Source of the DNA: Mycobacterium sp.
GTDB taxonomy: Bacteria; Actinomycetota; Actinomycetes; Mycobacteriales; Mycobacteriaceae
Assembly (NCBI GenBank): GCA_023264755.1
Contig: JAHFVB010000003.1
Location: 1-12,893 of the forward strand
Direction: 5' to 3'
Length of the DNA stretch: 12,893 bases
The position numbers and the translations under genes are program-made. The notes beneath the pieces were generated by a model. That model saw nothing but the letters and a program-made list of their open reading frames with translations. It ran no database searches and had not been told where the DNA came from. Below are positions 1-12,815 of the stretch, in pieces. Numbering within the stretch: position 1 is the stretch's first letter; every line of letters starts with the position of its first letter.

Positions 1-138
1 TTCGCCAAGTCGGCGATCCTCAATGTCGATTCCTCCGACGTGGTCAAGCAGGGCGGCCCGCCATCGGGGGCGCACAGCGACATCTTCCACCCGGAGTTGG
101 CCTGGATCGTCGCGTCCGCGGCGCAGCTGACGGACTGA
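1..138 (+). CDS. C-terminal fragment of an unidentified protein
   Basis: The reading frame is open from the first base and ends at TGA 136-138, giving the last 45 residues of a protein that starts outside the window. The fragment begins FAKSAILNVD and ends VASAAQLTD. It contains a GAHSDIFHPELAW stretch followed by a short hydrophobic, probably helical end. A His near the C-terminus before a final helix would suit an alpha/beta hydrolase, but this is only a guess from shape; I do not recognise the family. Codon use is typical of the window (mostly G or C in third position), which supports real coding. The gene converges on the small secreted protein gene at 196-426, with 57 bases between the two stops. 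Confidence 0.6.
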   Translation, partial: FAKSAILNVDSSDVVKQGGPPSGAHSDIFHPELAWIVASAAQLTD

Positions 139-195
139 AGACCACGGCGTTGGCTGACGGCGTCAACCGTTGTCGGGCAGCTTGTTTCGCAAAGG

Positions 196-426
196 CTAGT
201 AGTGATGCCCACCGTTCTGGCCACCCGTGCTGGAACCGGACGAGCCGCCAGATGGGGCTTGGGTCATGTTCGGCGGTGGCGGAGTGTTGCATTGACCATC
301 GATGACGATCTGGCCTGGCTCGCAAACCGTGTTTCCAGGGTCGGCGATTGCGGCAGGTGCGCAGAGCATCCCAAACGCACCGATGGCGGCCAACAACGAC
401 GCGACTCTTACTCGTGGCAGGCGCAT
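196..426 (-). CDS. Small secreted protein with signal peptide
   Basis: This encodes a 76-residue protein with a clear Sec-type signal peptide: basic start (MRLPRVRVA), hydrophobic core to about residue 25, and a probable cut after APAAIA (residue 28), before Asp29. The mature part is only about 48 residues. It has two cysteines (35 and 46) in a CEPGQ-to-DGQC loop that could form one disulfide. A short proline run (PPPP) and a flexible Gly/Ser/Thr/Gln tail ending HHY follow. A purine-rich AAGGGGGGG stretch sits just upstream of the ATG as ribosome binding site. Small exported proteins of this style are common in mycobacteria, mostly without known function. The gene is divergent from the TetR gene at 699; the shared 427-698 region holds a dyad that could serve both. 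Confidence 0.78.
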   Translation of the reverse strand: MRLPRVRVASLLAAIGAFGMLCAPAAIADPGNTVCEPGQIVIDGQCNTPPPPNMTQAPSGGSSGSSTGGQNGGHHY

Positions 427-483
427 GGTGCACCCCCCCTTCCGTTCCAGAGGGGCTACAAGCTACGCCCTGAACCTTCGCTT

Positions 484-497
484 TGACAGGGGTGTCA
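484..497. promoter_or_regulatory. Candidate operator, TGACA-GGGG-TGTCA dyad
   Basis: A perfect dyad with 5-bp arms (TGACA and TGTCA) and a 4-bp GGGG spacer lies in the gap between the secreted-protein gene (minus) and the first TetR gene (plus). Short dyads of this kind between a TetR gene and a divergent neighbour are often the regulator's own binding site, so the TetR gene at 699 is the natural candidate. The preceding TTGACA (483-488) also resembles a -35 box, but no matching -10 lies 16-18 bases downstream. The assignment is inference from position and symmetry only. Confidence 0.35.
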
Positions 498-532
498 GTA
501 ACGGAGGCGAACGCTTCTCGTCGCTTGAATGT

Positions 533-538
533 TATGAT
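533..538 (+). promoter_or_regulatory. Possible -10 box of the first TetR gene
   Basis: TATGAT matches the TATAAT consensus at 5 of 6 positions in an otherwise GC-rich gap. It would start transcription near 545, leaving a leader of about 150 bases before the start at 699. No good -35 box is seen at the expected distance, which is not rare for actinobacterial promoters. The rest of the 427-698 gap shows no open frame I can support. Confidence 0.3.
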
Positions 539-698
539 TCGCGTCATTTACTAGCGCGTCGCCTCGATGCTCCAGAATGGAAGAACCGTAACCATGCGGC
601 AGCCTGACCGCCTCACGACAGCGGACACCGGTGCCACCGGGGCGTGGGCGACGGCAGCATGAAGCGCGCAGGTGGAGGTCCAGGTGGAGGTCATTGCC

Positions 699-1334
699 AT
701 GGCCGGGCGTGACCAGGAGCTGGCTTCGGAGCCCTCGCCGCCCGACGCGACGAGCGTCCGGATATTGGATGCAGTGATGCAGGTGCTGACCGACTTCGGT
801 TTCAAGAAGGCCACCGTAGAACTGGTGGCGAAAGCCGCTGGAGTCGCCCATACGACGGTCTATCGGCGCTGGCCGACCAGAGCTGACCTGTTTCTTGCCG
901 CGATTGTCCGGGAAGTTCACGCCGTCGCCGATGCGGCGTTCGCCGCCGTCGATGACGCTGCGACGTTCGATGACAAGGTGCTCGTCGCATTCGTCGAAGT
1001 GGTCTGGTCCGTGCACACGCACCCACTGATGGCGCGCGAACTGCGAACCGACCCGGAGCGCGCGCTGCCGTTGTTGACCACCGCGTCGGCGCCGCTCATG
1101 CCTGGGGCGCTCGCGTATGTGGCGCAGCGGCTGCGCGACATGGCAGCCGATAGTGGGGTGGGTCTCGACGATCCAGAGTCGCTGGCCGATGTCTTGTTGC
1201 GGCTGGCGCATTCCCTGGTACTGATGCCCAATCCCAGCCGTCCGCTGAGCCGCAAGCTCGACGTCGACGACTATGCCCGGCGCTACTTGACACCGCTGAC
1301 CCGAGCTGCGGTCACGACGAATATCGGCTCGTGA
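699..1334 (+). CDS. TetR/AcrR-family transcriptional regulator (first of three tandem TetR-type genes)
   Basis: A complete TetR regulator of 211 residues. The N-terminal DNA-binding domain spans about residues 18-65. Its helix-turn-helix is at about 39-58, including AAGVAHTTVYRRW, and is followed by the usual basic/acidic P-T-R-A-D-L start of helix 4. The remaining 145 residues form the helical ligand-binding and dimer domain, with a conserved-looking block DDPESLADVLLRLAHSLVL near 157-175. I chose ATG 699 because GGAGG at 686-690 is spaced 8 bases from it. An in-frame GTG at 672 would add nine residues but has no better ribosome site. The stop overlaps no gene, but a short frame begins 4 bases later and the second TetR-type gene starts 111 bases on, so the array is probably one operon. 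Targets are unknown; the divergent secreted protein gene and the operon itself are the obvious candidates. Confidence 0.9.
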   Translation: MAGRDQELASEPSPPDATSVRILDAVMQVLTDFGFKKATVELVAKAAGVAHTTVYRRWPTRADLFLAAIVREVHAVADAAFAAVDDAATFDDKVLVAFVEVVWSVHTHPLMARELRTDPERALPLLTTASAPLMPGALAYVAQRLRDMAADSGVGLDDPESLADVLLRLAHSLVLMPNPSRPLSRKLDVDDYARRYLTPLTRAAVTTNIGS

Positions 1335-1338
1335 GCTC

Positions 1339-1449
1339 ATGGAGCACGCGCAACAGTTCGGTGTTGCCGGCCTGATCTGGCGGCCCGACTGCTGCCGCGC
1401 CACGGCGGTCGTCTCCACGTTCGACGCTGACCCCGGGGCCGCGAGATGA
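1339..1449 (+). CDS. Possible 36-residue linking ORF
   Basis: The ATG lies 4 bases after the stop of the first TetR gene. The frame runs 36 codons and ends in TGA 1447-1449, sharing ATGA with the start of the second TetR-type gene. The product begins MEHAQQFGVAGLIW and contains an adjacent Cys-Cys pair. There is no Shine-Dalgarno sequence, so it would depend on reinitiation. It may encode no stable protein and act only to carry ribosomes to the next gene, or it may be a chance frame. I recognise no family. Confidence 0.25.
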   Translation: MEHAQQFGVAGLIWRPDCCRATAVVSTFDADPGAAR

Positions 1450-2093
1450 CCGCAACGCCAGGCGAGTTCGGTGCGCCCGGCGCACTGACACCGAGTTGCG
1501 TCGCGGAACGCATCCTCGCGGCGGCGTCAGACCTCTGCACCCTCGTCGGCGTCAAACGCACGACGATCACCGACATCGCTCGTTACGCCGACCTCGACGA
1601 CACGCTCATCCGCAGTCAATGGGAGACCGTGACCGACATCGTCGGCGCAGTCGTCATCCGCGACTTTCACGCCGGCATCGACCACACCGAGTCACGAATT
1701 CGCTCGCACGAGCAACTCCGTGACGTGATCGCTGAGGCATTCGCCGCCGCCTACTGGTTCCTCGACAGTCATCCCATCGTCGGGGGAGTGGTGCGCTCCG
1801 ATGCCGATACCCTCCTGCCGACGGCGACGGTGTCGATCACCGCGGTCGTCACGGCAGTTACGCGCTGGCTGGTCGACGTCGTGACGACGGCCGCGCGTCA
1901 GCGCGCCGGTCTGATCGTCGACGCGGAGCGGCTAGAAGAGGTAACCACTCGGCTGATTCAATCGATGTTGTTGGCGCCCAATGTTTCTGCGCCAACCGAC
2001 ACATTCGGGGCGGTCATCGGATACGCGGGACTGCGGTACGTGCCGTTGGTCTATGCCATGTGCCTGCCGGGCGCCGACGAGGCGCCATGTTGA
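1446..2093 (+). CDS. TetR-like protein with degenerate DNA-binding helix-turn-helix
   Basis: A 215-residue protein with the TetR layout. A first helix (ERILAAASDLCTLVGVKRTT, about 21-40) is followed by a helix-turn-helix-like segment at about 39-59 and an all-helical C-terminal domain. The start of the HTH (TTITDIARYADL) is acceptable. The recognition helix, however, reads DDTLIRSQWETVTDI where the first gene has AHTTVYRRWPTRADL: the Tyr and the basic residues are lost and only the Trp is aligned. The C-terminal half resembles that of the first gene in spacing, for example a helix with LDSHPIVGGVVRSD and a later RLIQSMLLAPN block. DNA binding may be weak or altered, or it may act through a partner. 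Its ATG overlaps the stop of the 36-codon frame, and no strong ribosome site is present. The stop lies 13 bases before the start chosen for the third gene. Confidence 0.8.
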   Translation: MTATPGEFGAPGALTPSCVAERILAAASDLCTLVGVKRTTITDIARYADLDDTLIRSQWETVTDIVGAVVIRDFHAGIDHTESRIRSHEQLRDVIAEAFAAAYWFLDSHPIVGGVVRSDADTLLPTATVSITAVVTAVTRWLVDVVTTAARQRAGLIVDAERLEEVTTRLIQSMLLAPNVSAPTDTFGAVIGYAGLRYVPLVYAMCLPGADEAPC

Positions 2094-2106
2094 ATCGCGA
2101 CGTGCG

Positions 2107-3147
2107 ATGACGGGACGTCATCGGAGGTGGATGCCGGCGCCGATGCCGGAGCCAGATCTGCTGGCGGCAGAGGTGACGGCGGTGATCGACTCGGCGCTGG
2201 ATGCGCGCGACGACCGCCGGGAGTTCGAAGGCGCAGTGCTGGATGCCTTCTCGGAGGTGATCTGGACATTGCAGCGCGATCACCGATTGGTGAGCTCGCA
2301 TTCTGCGCCCGAAACGGCCATGCCGGCAATGATGGCTGCGTCGACGGTGGCGCTGCCGGCACTCGTGGAGGCCACCACACTGCGCCTCGGTGCGCTCGCT
2401 GCGGCCACCGGGACTCGACTCGATGACCTCGAATCGTTGGCCGAGATCCTGGTGCGGTTGGCTCACGCTGTACTACTCGTCACCGGGGCCGGATCCGACA
2501 GCCGGAGCGATGTGGATGCCTACGTGCAACGACACGTGGCGCCCGTGGTGCGGTATGCCGTCAGCGGACGAGCGGCGCGCATCGACGGCGGCCCGGGGCT
2601 GCCGCGGGTGCGCCGGTTTCGCGGGGAGTTGTTGGTAGCCACGCTGATTGCGGCGATGATCGGTTCAGGGGGCTGGATGGCGGTTGCGTCGCGTTCGGCT
2701 CCACCTTCGGTGACGCCGACCAATGTCACCGGGACGGTGCCGGAGCCGAGCCAGGAGGTCACGCCGGTGAGTGCGATCTCGACTTCGGCGACCGCTGCGC
2801 AGCCGCACCCATCCGAGCCGCCGGCGGCGCAGTCACCGTCGATATCGACGCCCACGCAGGTGTCGCCGCTGCCAACGAGCACACTGACCACCGCCGATCG
2901 CACCGCATCAGATGGCTCTGGTGGACTTCCGCCGCGACCTGCGGGCGGGGCGCCGGGTGCTCCGCCTCCGACTCGGGTTCCTTCGACCGTAGGCGCTGGT
3001 GGCGCTCCCGCCGCAGGGGCGGGTCAGCCGGGCGCACCCGCAGCGCCGTCAGGTTCCTCGCCAGGCTCGGCTGGTGCCGGCCGCGCTGGGCCCAGCCACG
3101 CGGGTCCCGGCGCCGGTGGTGGCGGTCGTCCCAACGGACATCCGTAG
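2107..3147 (+). CDS. Membrane-anchored TetR ligand-binding domain lacking the DNA-binding domain, with Pro/Ser/Gly-rich tail
   Basis: A 346-residue protein of unusual build. Residues 1-8 (MTGRHRRW) align with the very end of a TetR recognition helix (HTTVYRRW in the gene at 699); the rest of the helix-turn-helix is absent. Residues about 17-155 align with the ligand-binding half of that same gene; compare LDDLESLAEILVRLAHAVLL (105-124) with LDDPESLADVLLRLAHSLVL. Next comes a basic stretch (RVRRFRGE, 167-174) and one hydrophobic segment (about 175-194), predicted to be a membrane helix with the TetR-like part in the cytoplasm. Residues 195-346 are low in complexity and rich in Pro, Ser, Thr, Ala and Gly, and would lie outside the membrane. 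Start choice is uncertain: ATG 2107 has no good ribosome site; in-frame GTG 2128 and ATG 2131 and 2143 also exist. It may be a signalling or sequestering partner of the two upstream proteins. An evolved remnant is the alternative. Confidence 0.75.
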   Translation: MTGRHRRWMPAPMPEPDLLAAEVTAVIDSALDARDDRREFEGAVLDAFSEVIWTLQRDHRLVSSHSAPETAMPAMMAASTVALPALVEATTLRLGALAAATGTRLDDLESLAEILVRLAHAVLLVTGAGSDSRSDVDAYVQRHVAPVVRYAVSGRAARIDGGPGLPRVRRFRGELLVATLIAAMIGSGGWMAVASRSAPPSVTPTNVTGTVPEPSQEVTPVSAISTSATAAQPHPSEPPAAQSPSISTPTQVSPLPTSTLTTADRTASDGSGGLPPRPAGGAPGAPPPTRVPSTVGAGGAPAAGAGQPGAPAAPSGSSPGSAGAGRAGPSHAGPGAGGGGRPNGHP

Positions 3148-3482
3148 CCGGCGCGATGTGACAATGCCTGCGGTCGTTACAGGTTGATTCGCGAATGGCG
3201 TTGTCGATCAAGATGACTCGGATTGTCGATGACCAAATGGCAACGATGCCTACGCGTTGCAGTCGGGACAATGGAGGAGACCGCCTCGCCACACGGGGGG
3301 TTGTGGCGAGGCGGTCACCGGAGCGCCGTTCTCGTTGCGGTCGCAGCCTCATCAGGGGGTGGGGGCCACGGCCTCTCACGAACGCTCGAACGCTACGATA
3401 TCACTATCTTCATAGCGCTGCCAAGGCGACGAGGAAACGACGTACGAGGCCCTCGCGCCAGCCGTGATGCGCGAGACTGCCG
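3148..3482. other. Convergent intergenic region
   Basis: This lies between the convergent TetR-array and tenA genes. It holds the strong hairpin at 3279-3316 and an 8-bp tandem duplication CGAACGCT CGAACGCT at 3379-3394. A single TGACCAAAT (3230-3238) matches one arm of the operator at 10225 but has no partner arm. Frames crossing the region are short and have poor codon use, so I call no gene. Confidence 0.6.
3279..3316. terminator. Strong perfect hairpin, likely terminator between convergent genes
   Basis: A perfect 15-bp stem (GACCGCCTCGCCACA at 3279-3293 pairing with 3302-3316) encloses an 8-base G-rich loop. It sits between the stops of the membrane-anchored TetR-like gene (3147) and tenA (3483), where a two-way terminator is expected. 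There is no T-run on either side. Hairpins without a T-run are common at actinobacterial gene ends, but that absence lowers confidence in intrinsic termination. Confidence 0.6.
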
Positions 3483-4178
3483 TCAGATTGGCCAGGTCTC
3501 TCGTCGGTGCGCGGCGTCGAAGAACATCCATTCGTAGCGGGCCGTGGTCACGAAGTGCGCGCGGGCGAGCGCTTCCTGCCCAGCGGTCAACGTCGGCCCG
3601 GTTTGGTCGGTCAGCTCGAGCACCTCGGCGACGGTGGTGGCGAAGTCCTCGCCGGAATAGCTGTCGATCCAGCGTTGATAGCGCTGATCGGGGGAGCCGC
3701 GCTCGAGGAGCGCGGTGCCGACGCGAGCGTAGATCCAGTAGCAGGGCAGGATCGCGGCCAAGCCGTCGGCGAAGCTGCCACCTCGGGTCGTCGCCAGCAG
3801 GTAGCTGGTGTACGCCAGCGTCGTAGGAGTCGGCGGGGTCGCTTCGATGCTGCTCGGGTCCAGGCCCAGTTCGGGCAGCAGGCTGCCGTGCAGGGCGAGT
3901 TCGACGTCATACACCTCGGCGGCGTGGCGGGAGAACATCGCAGTCGCCGACAGCCCAGGGGCCTTGGCTCCCACAATGTCCAATGCGCGAGCGTAGTCGC
4001 GCAGGTAGTGGACGTCCTGGGCGACATAGTGGGCGAAGGCAATCGGGTCGAGCGTGCCGTCGGTCAGACCCGTCACGAACGGATGCTTGAGGGTTGCGTC
4101 GAATATCGGCTCGATGTCTGCCCACAATCGAGCAGACCAGGGGGTGATGGAGCCGATGCTTGTCTCGCTGTGATTCAT
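3483..4178 (-). CDS. tenA: TenA-family protein, probable aminopyrimidine aminohydrolase (thiaminase II)
   Basis: A 231-residue protein of the usual TenA length (about 220-240). TenA enzymes hydrolyse aminopyrimidine breakdown products of thiamine, or thiamine itself, so that the pyrimidine can be reused. Family residues are visible in order: Tyr51 and Asp55 in FAHYVAQDVHYLRDY, Tyr123 in LAYTSYLLA, the catalytic Cys146 in ILPCYWIYARVG with Tyr150, Tyr174 in DSYSGEDF, and Glu216 in RYEWMFFDAA. The cysteine places it in the TenA_C type. An AAGG about 7 bases before the ATG can serve as ribosome site. No other thiamine gene is in the window and I see no TPP-riboswitch consensus upstream, so it is probably a lone salvage gene. 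It is divergent from the large LuxR regulator with about 230 bases between them. Confidence 0.9.
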   Translation of the reverse strand: MNHSETSIGSITPWSARLWADIEPIFDATLKHPFVTGLTDGTLDPIAFAHYVAQDVHYLRDYARALDIVGAKAPGLSATAMFSRHAAEVYDVELALHGSLLPELGLDPSSIEATPPTPTTLAYTSYLLATTRGGSFADGLAAILPCYWIYARVGTALLERGSPDQRYQRWIDSYSGEDFATTVAEVLELTDQTGPTLTAGQEALARAHFVTTARYEWMFFDAAHRRETWPI

Positions 4179-4325
4179 GTACCGGCCTTAATCGTCGATG
4201 TCGTCTACTGGTTTCGTTGCCTACGCTCTCGTACCACCCGACCGTAGTGGCATCGATGCGACAGATGCATGAAGGACGGTCCACGCCACGGGGCCGTGGT
4301 AAGCGCGGGCCACCGCCTGTGGAAT

Positions 4326-4343
4326 CGAGTAGTCCGCTACTCG
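4326..4343. repeat. Short dyad upstream of the LuxR-family gene
   Basis: CGAGTAG (4326-4332) and CTACTCG (4337-4343) form a perfect 7-bp inverted repeat around TCCG. It lies in the 4179-4406 gap between divergent tenA and the LuxR-family gene, about 65 bases before the latter. TTGACG (4349-4354) just downstream looks like a -35 box without a well-spaced -10. The dyad could be an operator or a small hairpin; position is the only support. Nothing else in the gap stands out. Confidence 0.3.
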
Positions 4344-4406
4344 GGCTGTTGACGGGGCGCGCGGCCTACGGTTCGTGACTAGTTTGCCAAGGTGCGGAGG
4401 GCGGTC

Positions 4407-9047: not shown

Positions 9048-10172
9048 ATGAACACACTGCCGCTGAGGTTGGCCCATTCTCCGCAGGACTATCAGGCGCT
9101 GGGGTTGCAGCCCGGTCAGATCACCGCCAGCGAACAGCGGATGCACGTCGACGGTAGTCCCGGAACGATGGAATGGTGGTTCATGAAAGCAGATTTGGAC
9201 GGCTGCATGGTGGCGATCGGCATGATGACCTGTCCATATTTCCTCGCCGAGCTCGGCCTGAAACCAGGCGTGAGCCTGTTCGTTACGCTGCCCGACGGGA
9301 CCGTGATCGACTCGAGTGCGGTCTTCTCTGCTGATGATTGGTCGTCCGCCCCTGGCGATGACTGCGATGTCCAGGTTGGCAAGAATCGCTTCCGGCGTAT
9401 CGACGCCAATACCTACCACGCTCATTTCGAGAACAACGGCTACACCGTTGACCTTGAACTCACTCCCACCGCACCCGAATGGCGACCGGAGGCTGGGCAC
9501 ATCATCTTCGGCGAGAACGACGAGAACGTCTTCGGTTGGTCCATCCCGGTACCCGCTGGCGACATCCACGTGGTCATCCGTGGCAACGGGCTCGACATCG
9601 ACGGCCATGGCACCGGATACATCGACCGCGGCTGGATGAACAAGCCGCTCGGCGAATTCCTGCACGACTGGAACTGGTTCCATTGGGAGTTCAACGACTA
9701 CACCGTTCTCGCGGTGTACATGACGTTCGAGAAGGAATACGGCTACCCCGACATTCCATTCTTCATGGTGTTCCGCGGCGACCAACTGCTCGCCGGGGGA
9801 CCGGGCACCCAGGACAGTGACCACATCACCTATGGCATCGAAGGCTCCCAGGTGGACCCAGTAACCGGCAAGCCGGTACCGGACGCATTCACCTACGACT
9901 ATCGCGACGGTGCCACTCGCTTCACCCTGTCGGTCAAGAACGAGACGGCAACTGCCCAAATCAATTTCGCCGACGTTCTGCCTGGAACCGAAGCGGAGAA
10001 GTCGCAGGCCTCGATTTATGGTGGCGCCATGCTGCGATTCACCGGACCCGCCGAACTCACTCACTACGAAGATGGCGAAGTCGTCGAGCGAGTCCAGGTC
10101 CGGACGGGCCCGTTCTACGAACTCATGTACATGGGCGCCGCATCCGTGACGTCTGGCGCCACCAGGGGGTAG
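9048..10172 (+). CDS. CrtC/AttH-type lipocalin-like domain protein
   Basis: A 374-residue soluble protein rich in beta strands. The EWWF motif (residues 42-45) and the later GTGYIDRGW with LHDWNWFHWEF (about 188-215) are typical of the hydroxyneurosporene synthase (CrtC)/AttH lipocalin-like superfamily. This group has two consecutive lipocalin-like barrels and includes carotenoid hydratases and cyclases or isomerases acting on terpenoid and polyketide substrates. Conserved Trp, Asp and His residues line the pocket in known members. No signal peptide or membrane helix is seen. GGAAGGA lies about 7 bases before the ATG. It follows the IclR gene and precedes a TetR gene, an EthD-like gene and an SDR, so a role in changing or carrying a hydrophobic compound is a fair inference. 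The reaction is unknown. I give no gene symbol because CrtC function without other carotenoid genes is unlikely. Confidence 0.82.
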   Translation: MNTLPLRLAHSPQDYQALGLQPGQITASEQRMHVDGSPGTMEWWFMKADLDGCMVAIGMMTCPYFLAELGLKPGVSLFVTLPDGTVIDSSAVFSADDWSSAPGDDCDVQVGKNRFRRIDANTYHAHFENNGYTVDLELTPTAPEWRPEAGHIIFGENDENVFGWSIPVPAGDIHVVIRGNGLDIDGHGTGYIDRGWMNKPLGEFLHDWNWFHWEFNDYTVLAVYMTFEKEYGYPDIPFFMVFRGDQLLAGGPGTQDSDHITYGIEGSQVDPVTGKPVPDAFTYDYRDGATRFTLSVKNETATAQINFADVLPGTEAEKSQASIYGGAMLRFTGPAELTHYEDGEVVERVQVRTGPFYELMYMGAASVTSGATRG

Positions 10173-11119: not shown

Positions 11120-11836
11120 ATGCTCAAGGTCACGATCCTTCTCAAGGCCAGCCCATCCGTCGAGCTCGGCGAGTTCGTCGCTCAACGCACCGATGCCTCG
11201 GAGGCGATCTTCGATCGTTTGGCGCACACCAAAGGAGCGCTCCGGTACGCCCAGAATCACTGTTTGCCGGCCGACAACCCCATCGCCAGCGCGGGGAGCA
11301 GCGCATTCGACGCTGCGGAAGAGTACTGGTTCGACACCATCGAGGCGGCCCGCGAATTCTTCTCCGATCCCGGAGCTACGGTTCTGCGCGACCAACCAAC
11401 AATCGACCTGTCGGCATGCCGGGAAGTCGCTGGCAACGTTCACCCGATCTGGGATTCCGCCCCTGAGGCGACCAAGATTCTCATCTTCGGACGACGCAAG
11501 CCCGGACTGTCGGTCGAGGAGTACCGCCACCATTGGATCAACGTCCACGGACCGCTGGCGATGGCCAGCCCGTTCGGCCACGAGGTGCGTGGACGAGTGG
11601 AGTATTGCCCTGCAGACGAACTCCACGTCACTGGATTGCAATTGGCCGACGTCGACGGCACTGGCACACTGACCGTGAAGGTGGGCCCGGACGGCTTTGG
11701 CGACCTGACGGACAACGACTACTACCGTGATGTCCTAGCGCCAGACGAACTACGCTTCGGCGACCCGGCGCATTCCAGCGGCATGGTGGTCATCGAGGAC
11801 TGCGTATGGGGTGAAATGCCCTACACGATCCGCTGA
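11120..11836 (+). CDS. EthD-type dimeric alpha-beta barrel protein (two tandem domains)
   Basis: A 238-residue protein containing two ferredoxin-like EthD/Dabb domains. The first runs from about 2 to 110 (KVTILLKASPSVELGEFVAQR..., then a strand-rich AEEYWFDT stretch). The second runs from about 118 to 235 and has the characteristic KILIFGRRKPGLSVEEYRHHW with NVHGPLA (about 119-147). EthD proteins are small cofactor-free enzymes or helper proteins found with oxidative catabolism of ethers, aromatics, steroids and polyketides. A fused pair would form the usual dimeric barrel within one chain. ATG 11120 is chosen because AGGAAG lies about 8 bases upstream; the frame extends back to 11069 without support. 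It follows the TetR gene by 72 bases, and that gap contains a TGTCC-ACCA-GGACA dyad (11070-11083). It converges on the SDR gene with only 19 bases between the stops. Confidence 0.85.
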   Translation: MLKVTILLKASPSVELGEFVAQRTDASEAIFDRLAHTKGALRYAQNHCLPADNPIASAGSSAFDAAEEYWFDTIEAAREFFSDPGATVLRDQPTIDLSACREVAGNVHPIWDSAPEATKILIFGRRKPGLSVEEYRHHWINVHGPLAMASPFGHEVRGRVEYCPADELHVTGLQLADVDGTGTLTVKVGPDGFGDLTDNDYYRDVLAPDELRFGDPAHSSGMVVIEDCVWGEMPYTIR

Positions 11837-11855
11837 AGTCGCACCTGCCCGCCGG

Positions 11856-12815
11856 TCAGGCCTGCTCTCCGACACTCAGTGCCTCGAGGACGAAGTCGGC
11901 TGGACTCGAGTAGGCGTCCTTGCCCTTGACGCCCTGCATGAATCCGGTGTGTTGAACCGGCACGTCCGCCAACGCCGCAGACAACGATTCCACCGTCCAG
12001 CCGTTCTCGCCATTGTCGATGTGATGTCCCACTGACCAGCCGTCGAAGATGGTGATGTCGTCGCCGACGACTCCGAAGATTCGGCCGGTGAATCGCAGCC
12101 CGGGAGACGATAGATATGTGACCAGTGCGGCTGCGTGTTCTGGGGCAAATCGGTCGAATCCGTCAGCAACCGGCTGGACCAATTCAGCGAAGATGGCCTC
12201 GCTGCTGCGGGTACGAGCCACCGGCGCAACGCCGTTCACGCGGACGCCGAGGTCCGCTAGCTCCATTGCGCTGGTGATGGTCAACGCTGCCACACCAGCT
12301 TTCGCGGCGGCGTACATCGGATTGCCGGGCACGGGTGTCAGCCCGATGCCGGAGCTGATATTGACGATTCGACGGCCGGCTTCCGGGCCTTGCTTTCGCC
12401 AGTATGATGCTGCCCAATGGCTCACTGCCGCAGTGCCGTTCAAGACGACGTCGATGGTGCGTTCCCAATCGAAGCGGGTCGCCGCGTCAATCGGAGCGAA
12501 TCGGTTGATGGCCGCATTGTTGACCACGATGTCGAGCCGGCCGAATGTGTCGACCGCAGTGTCGATGAGACCCTCAACCGCATCCCAGTCGGAGATGTCG
12601 ATGGTGTTGGCCACGGCGCGACCGCCGGCAGCTGTGATCGATTGGACCGCCCCGTCTGCGGGCCCGCTGCTCGGTACGCCGTCGCCGGCGAGTTCGCCGC
12701 CAAGATCGTTCACGACCACTGCCGCTCCGGCTCGGGCGAGTGCTTCGGCATGTGCGCGGCCCAGGCCTCGTCCACCGCCGGTCACGATTGCGACTTTGCC
12801 ATCCAGTTCGGGCAT
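11856..12815 (-). CDS. Short-chain dehydrogenase/reductase (classical SDR, 17-beta-HSD4-like)
   Basis: A 319-residue NAD(P)-dependent oxidoreductase with the classical SDR signature. The nucleotide-binding TGGGRGLG is at about 12-19, VVNDLGG (34-40) at the end of the second strand, NNAA at 99-102, and the catalytic Asn126, Ser155, Tyr168 and Lys172 (YAAAK). Asp37 after the second strand favours NAD(H). The VVNDLGG form and the longer C-terminal tail (about 250-319, DDITIFDGW...) resemble the hydroxyacyl-CoA or steroid dehydrogenases of the 17-beta-HSD4 group seen in mycobacteria. Its substrate is therefore probably a hydroxyl group on a lipid, steroid or CoA ester. I chose the ATG ending at 12815 because AGGAG (12822-12826) lies 6 bases from it; the ATG two codons earlier abuts that site. 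It is convergent with the EthD-like gene and may share its pathway. Confidence 0.92.
   Translation of the reverse strand: MPELDGKVAIVTGGGRGLGRAHAEALARAGAAVVVNDLGGELAGDGVPSSGPADGAVQSITAAGGRAVANTIDISDWDAVEGLIDTAVDTFGRLDIVVNNAAINRFAPIDAATRFDWERTIDVVLNGTAAVSHWAASYWRKQGPEAGRRIVNISSGIGLTPVPGNPMYAAAKAGVAALTITSAMELADLGVRVNGVAPVARTRSSEAIFAELVQPVADGFDRFAPEHAAALVTYLSSPGLRFTGRIFGVVGDDITIFDGWSVGHHIDNGENGWTVESLSAALADVPVQHTGFMQGVKGKDAYSSPADFVLEALSVGEQA

Follow-up and report, generated by a model that had tools for sequence, protein, structure and literature searches.

A TetR-type ligand-binding domain lacking a detectable DNA-binding domain, with a predicted membrane helix and a long tail, encoded beside two TetR-like genes in a Mycobacterium

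Introduction

TetR proteins are commonly taken as soluble one-component repressors. In the LuxR family, the account in PMC11655674 describes the pairs TrlR/TraR of Agrobacterium and CerN/CerM of Cereibacter, in which an antagonist without a helix-turn-helix (HTH) controls a full-length paralogue. In the LytTR regulatory systems, as outlined in PMC13384398, a DNA-binding regulator is encoded next to a membrane inhibitor. The transmembrane transcription regulators, including ToxR, CadC and others, are defined in PMC10269533 by a DNA-binding domain combined with one or more membrane regions; the word "TetR" is absent from the main text of that survey, whose supplement tallies more than a hundred DNA-binding domains. 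Our search of the open-licence literature found neither a membrane-anchored TetR nor an HTH-less membrane TetR, which is weak evidence of absence.

Here, we analysed a stretch of 12,893 nucleotides from a Mycobacterium sp. (hereafter, the window), in which an earlier note had pointed to an unusual gene at 2107-3147. This gene, HL, follows two TetR-like genes, TetR1 and TetR2, as listed below.

699..1334, forward strand: TetR1, a soluble TetR with an intact HTH and the likely partner of HL (TetR_N 43.5 bits; E 1.8e-67 with the profile of the fused family described below; tree)
1446..2093, forward strand: TetR2, TetR-like (TetR_N 14.9 bits, cut-off 24), with a changed recognition helix; 69% identical in Mycolicibacterium stellerae
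2094..2106, forward strand: gap between TetR2 and HL, 13 nt, of equal length in M. stellerae
2107..3147, forward strand: HL, ATG start, 346 a.a.; TetR C-terminal domain without HTH, predicted membrane helix and low-complexity tail
2152..2571, forward strand: TetR ligand-binding/dimerisation domain of HL, residues 16-155
2614..2688, forward strand: predicted membrane helix of HL, residues 170-194 (KD, K/R bias, low-confidence modelled helix, homology to the fused-family helix region)
2689..3144, forward strand: low-complexity tail of HL, residues 195-346, predicted to lie outside (composition, low pLDDT, pN/pS 0.67)

The plan of this cassette resembles TraR/TrlR and the LytTR regulatory systems, yet it is built from TetR. 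Like the LuxR-type antagonists, HL is a paralogue that keeps the ligand-binding/dimerisation domain of its full-length relative and lacks the DNA-binding domain; control of the paralogue is demonstrated in PMC11655674 for those pairs and would have to be supposed here. Unlike HL, the TrlR- and CerN-type antagonists described there are soluble, without a membrane helix or tail, and TrlR is 88% identical to TraR, whereas HL is ~36% identical to TetR1. As in the LytTR systems outlined in PMC13384398, a soluble DNA-binding gene is followed by the gene of a membrane protein that may hold the regulator, and a fused one-chain form occurs in both; in the cassette the adjacency is present and the restraint is proposed. 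The LytTR systems described there use a LytTR domain, and their inhibitors have three or four helices, unlike the cassette, where TetR1 has TetR_N and no LytTR match, and where the membrane part, a TetR paralogue in its own right, has one predicted helix and an outer tail. The definition in PMC10269533 includes a DNA-binding domain, which HL lacks, whereas the fused relatives of HL, with an HTH, one helix and an outer part, fit that definition. Finally, HL shares the C-terminal domain fold with soluble TetR regulators (TetR1; QsdR, PDB 4za6; and others), which, as far as checked, have an HTH and no C-terminal membrane helix, unlike HL.

Results

HL is a TetR C-terminal domain without a detectable HTH

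HL aligned with TetR1 at 36% identity across residues 5-160 with an E-value of 1.9e-19, far beyond chance (phmmer E 3e-22), in agreement with the alignment of residues ~17-155 to the C-terminal half of the 699-1334 protein that the earlier note had described. Pfam assigned zero families to HL at E≤1, as did NCBIfam at E≤0.01. The N-terminal TetR_N HTH that characterises the TetR family was found in TetR1, fell below the cut-off in TetR2 and was found in HL by neither collection, while the all-helical C-terminal ligand-binding/dimerisation domain of the family is present in HL. An AlphaFold2 model placed helices inside residues 16-153, with pLDDT blocks mostly of 74-93 and dips to 59-65. Foldseek searches with HL gave weak E-values (best 0.055, none ≤0.001), and the 50 matches listed were mostly TetR-type. 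Judged by its sequence, HL thus has the domain make-up of a TetR ligand-binding/dimerisation domain without a detectable HTH, and the proposal of a TetR ligand-binding half devoid of its DNA-binding domain is borne out by the Pfam and NCBIfam blanks together with the TetR1 match.

Back-translated HL words matched 595 stretches in the species collection, with zero relatives among them. A plasmid or phage origin was also considered and rejected, as searches of plasmid and phage collections with residues 1-207 came back empty.

The domain is followed by a predicted membrane helix and a tail predicted to lie outside

The hydrophobic segment at residues 175-193 has a mean KD of 1.91, compared with ≤1.48 past residue 150 in soluble homologues. 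Behind it lies a tail of 153 residues, 78% of which are P/S/T/A/G, so that the single hydrophobic helix and the Pro/Ser/Thr/Ala/Gly tail of ~150 residues proposed earlier were recovered by KD, composition and length. AlphaFold2 modelled the helix at residues 170-194 with low confidence (pLDDT blocks 45-51), and the tail likewise. Six K/R residues precede the helix and one follows it; when stretches of 20 residues were compared, K/R were more numerous before than after the helix in 7/7 HL and in 16/19 fused proteins, with three ties. This excess predicts that the domain lies in the cytoplasm and the tail outside.

The HL frame is constrained and HTH-less homologues are diverse

Between the window and M. 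stellerae, the identities at the three codon positions of the HL domain plus helix were 0.64/0.70/0.50. The pN/pS values were 0.60 for this part of HL, 0.67 for its tail, 0.30 for TetR1 and 0.36 for TetR2, and the protein identities of 49% for HL and 74% for TetR1 mean that HL evolves faster. The start, ATGACGGGxCGTCA, is identical in both. The pN/pS of 0.60 indicates selective constraint on the HL frame. An untranslated frame would have spoken against the reading in the earlier note; instead, the frame is open and shows the codon-position bias, the pN/pS of 0.60-0.67 and the shared start expected of a translated one.

Protein searches yielded, besides the HL of the window, the homologues P0002, P0003, P0004, P0005, P0032 (the M. 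stellerae HL), P0033 and P0034. P0005 starts inside the domain, where an HTH is not judgeable, and was left out of the tree and the counts, giving seven HL sequences. The six other full-length homologues have no HTH, keep the helix and tail, and are 36-86% identical over the matched part. Five of the seven (window, M. stellerae, P0003, P0004 and P0033) start with MTGRH; the annotation of P0002 begins at a later Met, and the start of P0034 differs, both as judged from the protein only. P0034 is HTH-less too, differs at its N-terminus and branches apart from the remaining HL; it may represent a second independent HTH loss or a misplaced start.

A recent lesion or pseudogene was rejected as the main reading of HL, since the HTH-less homologues are diverse and keep the helix and tail, and the frame is constrained. 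The earlier note had taken homologues with an intact HTH as a sign of a recent lesion. Such homologues do exist, as the fused family below, but the lesion itself did not follow: the HTH-less branch is old and diverse with helix and tail retained, which makes a recent lesion very unlikely.

Two TetR-like genes precede HL in a rare cassette

The order TetR1-TetR2-HL is found in both the window and M. stellerae, and convincing translated similarity between the two loci spans ~744 to 2856 of the window. HL occurs in 2/396 Mycobacterium genomes, those of the window and of M. stellerae, and in the same two within a 297-genome set; a close TetR2 (69% identity) was found in the same 2/396. The conservation of gene order raised in the earlier note therefore extends to M. 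stellerae, but the order is confined to these two among the 396 genomes of the genus.

The upstream genes had both been called TetR proteins. This holds for TetR1 with its intact TetR_N, whereas TetR2 is no ordinary TetR: besides the low TetR_N score, the YRRW..K/R pattern of its relatives is altered in its recognition helix, which is more acidic, with ADLDDTLIRSQWETV at the place of AGVSHMTVYRRWSSK in P0008. Its model retains the HTH helices (18-34, 41-47 and 52-58), and the altered recognition helix makes normal DNA binding by TetR2 doubtful.

Elsewhere in the window, 9048-10172 encodes a 374-a.a. protein whose only family match is to the lipocalin-like Svf1_C, below threshold; another TetR gene and a gene with an EthD domain lie downstream of it.

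One-chain relatives carry the HTH, the domain, the helix and the tail

A weak match in genome G004 led to a family of fused proteins, single chains in which the C-terminal half known from HL sits between an intact TetR HTH and a membrane helix, and a long tail rich in Pro comes last. The fused gene was found in 13/396 genomes (G003, G004, G024, G078, G129, G135 with two, G217, G276, G281, G341, G389, G397 and G415), and G177 from the 297-genome set brings the count to at least 14 Mycobacterium genomes, a lower bound with weaker matches partly inspected. The proteins were checked for the helix, and for the tail wherever the contig extends far enough. Among named records, the fused form was present at 15/41 loci, all titled Mycobacterium, Mycolicibacterium or Mycobacteriaceae; these overlap the numbered genomes and are not additive, and L084 ends within the gene. 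In a set of 150 genomes from the order, G004 and HL itself were the only sources of fused-profile matches reaching the last ten positions of the profile. This one-chain family of Mycobacterium is apparently undescribed in the open-licence papers searched. Loci with a TetR, membrane helix and Pro-rich tail are L049-L060, L064-L066, L002, L103 and L116-L119.

HL and the fused family share an origin

We compared the helix regions (the helix with 10 residues before and 26 behind) of the 7 HL and 19 fused proteins by hhalign, which gave a probability of 97% and a score of 49.6. When the columns were permuted within three blocks, 0/100 controls reached this score (maximum 26.6). The comparison establishes homology of the two helix regions at the level of sequence profiles.

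A tree built from 41 rows and 145 columns of the C-terminal domain placed HL and TetR1 together with the fused family at 99/97, and the fused family alone formed one group at 97/98. HL minus P0034 joined TetR1 at 90/91, P0034 lay outside both with weak support (81/73), and the TetR2 branch was very long (2.2). Topology tests (AU p ~0.30) rejected neither TetR1 outside HL plus fused (p 0.296) nor HL outside fused plus TetR1 (p 0.295), and HL as a single clade was not rejected either (p 0.393). As the simplest account, we favour a history in which one anchored TetR was duplicated, after which one copy would have lost the anchor (TetR1) and the other the HTH (HL); it is not proved, because the alternative topologies were not rejected.

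Neighbouring genes suggest a possible link to the envelope

In M. stellerae, the cassette lies divergently next to a PKS gene, behind which come a gene with a condensation domain and an MmpL gene, an operon that we take to be of the envelope-lipid type; the contig of the window ends on the corresponding side. Ten fused loci (L049-L057 and L065) share a divergent neighbour of 634-750 a.a., which is an animal-type haem peroxidase in the three scanned (L049, L051 and L118, the last being the genome of L057). In 6/10 of these loci, a GcpE/IspG gene and a PBP gene, the latter convergent, form part of the cluster, and in five an M50-type gene does; of the remaining records three end too early and L054 was left out, and the families were assigned by Pfam on L049, with the PBP also on L118. 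In L049, the M50-family (site-2-protease type) gene at 11354-12706 lies ~4 kb from the fused TetR gene. An OmpR-type response-regulator gene adjoins other fused genes, at five loci and in G078, with four confirmed by Pfam. The loci with a fused TetR gene beside such a gene are L002, L058, L059, L064, L066 and L103. These neighbours, PKS/MmpL beside the M. stellerae cassette and the secreted peroxidase and the PBP beside fused relatives, hint at a link to the envelope or wall stress.

An inverted repeat, spotted by eye among related sequences, lies upstream of the fused gene in 9/10 loci (L049-L054, L056, L057 and L065). It reads exactly TGTTAT-N15-ATAACA in six, and its right half is TGTGAT on the other strand in three; L055 has no inverted repeat, and there the divergent ORF reads through the stretch taken. 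This repeat between the fused and divergent genes is a candidate operator or divergent promoter.

The cassette has a conserved upstream stretch of its own.

516..555, no strand: conserved non-coding block upstream of TetR1, a candidate control region; 30/40 bases common with the M. stellerae locus, 0/1000 shuffles

TGTTA occurs inside this block in both the window and M. stellerae. An operator common to the fused family and TetR1 was considered and rejected: the left-half PWM of the fused-family site was non-significant, with 227/1000 shuffles as good in the window and 440/1000 in M. stellerae, and its best places lay outside the conserved block. A promoter/terminator scan of 1-4400 gave zero terminators and one promoter-like site on the minus strand (3424-3395), which is of no relevance.

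The dimer surface is probably retained

TetR proteins dimerise via the last helices of the C-terminal domain. When two TetR1 were compared with two HL, the alpha8 identities were 0.59, 0.59, 0.65 and 0.53, against 0.32-0.44 for alpha6-7. Alpha8 was the best-conserved helix in three of the four comparisons; in the fourth, alpha9 (0.57) and alpha5 (0.56) were higher. Identity in alpha8 was 0.79 within HL and 0.39 between TetR2 and HL. The conservation of alpha8 suggests that the dimer surface is kept; it does not single out a heterodimer, because alpha8 was also the top helix against distant soluble homologues (0.51).

Discussion

The cassette looks like a soluble DNA-binding TetR1 with an anchored HTH-less paralogue, plus a TetR2 with a changed recognition helix. 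Given the fused one-chain relatives and the homologous helix regions, it resembles a membrane-tethered TetR divided between two proteins. On these grounds we tentatively propose, at a little short of an even chance, that HL is a membrane-held partner that pairs with TetR1 and bars it from the operator until released by a ligand or by a signal from the envelope. TetR1 and HL would form a heterodimer through alpha8/alpha9, and this dimer, with one HTH and one anchor, would be disarmed or membrane-bound, the HL tail presumably facing the cell wall. A ligand, or an outside signal conveyed by the tail, would then free TetR1. The target might be an envelope operon, of which the PKS-MmpL genes divergent to the M. 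stellerae cassette would be an example, and TetR2 could act as a further modulator that probably does not normally bind DNA. Overall, a membrane-tethered TetR would be run as two complementary chains.

HL could instead be a recruiter rather than an inhibitor, which we regard as unlikely: TetR1:HL together with another TetR1 would bind DNA and hold the operator at the membrane, as the two-chain equivalent of the fused relatives. A TetR1:HL dimer has one HTH, whereas TetR proteins bind DNA as dimers with two. Such recruitment would nevertheless accord with the intact HTH and anchor that the fused relatives keep in a single chain, with the conserved inverted repeat upstream of many fused genes, and with the binding of DNA from the membrane by transmembrane regulators, as described in PMC11856585. 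We give a similarly small chance to the idea that HL serves as a scaffold or a ligand sensor at the membrane, forming a homodimer or working mainly with TetR2, while TetR1 merely represses the cluster. The 13-nt TetR2-HL gap in both species and the confinement of close TetR2 to the genomes with HL (2/396 each) are in its favour, but HL is closer in sequence to TetR1, the TetR2 branch is very long, and alpha8 identity to HL is 0.39 for TetR2 versus 0.53-0.65 for TetR1. That HL is an anchored dominant-negative relic, a decaying fused-TetR copy with little function left, would agree with its lost HTH, its faster evolution than its neighbours and its occurrence in 2/396 genomes, but is highly improbable in view of the six further full-length homologues that retain helix and tail, the start conserved in 5/7, the open frames and the pN/pS of 0.60-0.67.

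The mycobacteria may possess a TetR-based family for membrane signalling, which we put forward with still more reserve than the pairing itself. Some of its members would be anchored TetRs made of one chain; in the two-chain version, a paralogue without HTH that reaches into the wall would capture the soluble TetR by heterodimerisation and free it on an envelope signal, as a membrane anti-TetR derived from TetR. If this is true, anchored and split TetRs would let mycobacteria link the state of their envelope to transcription with neither a kinase nor an anti-sigma factor. As the fused and split forms coexist, one-chain and two-chain tethering would be directly comparable by experiment.
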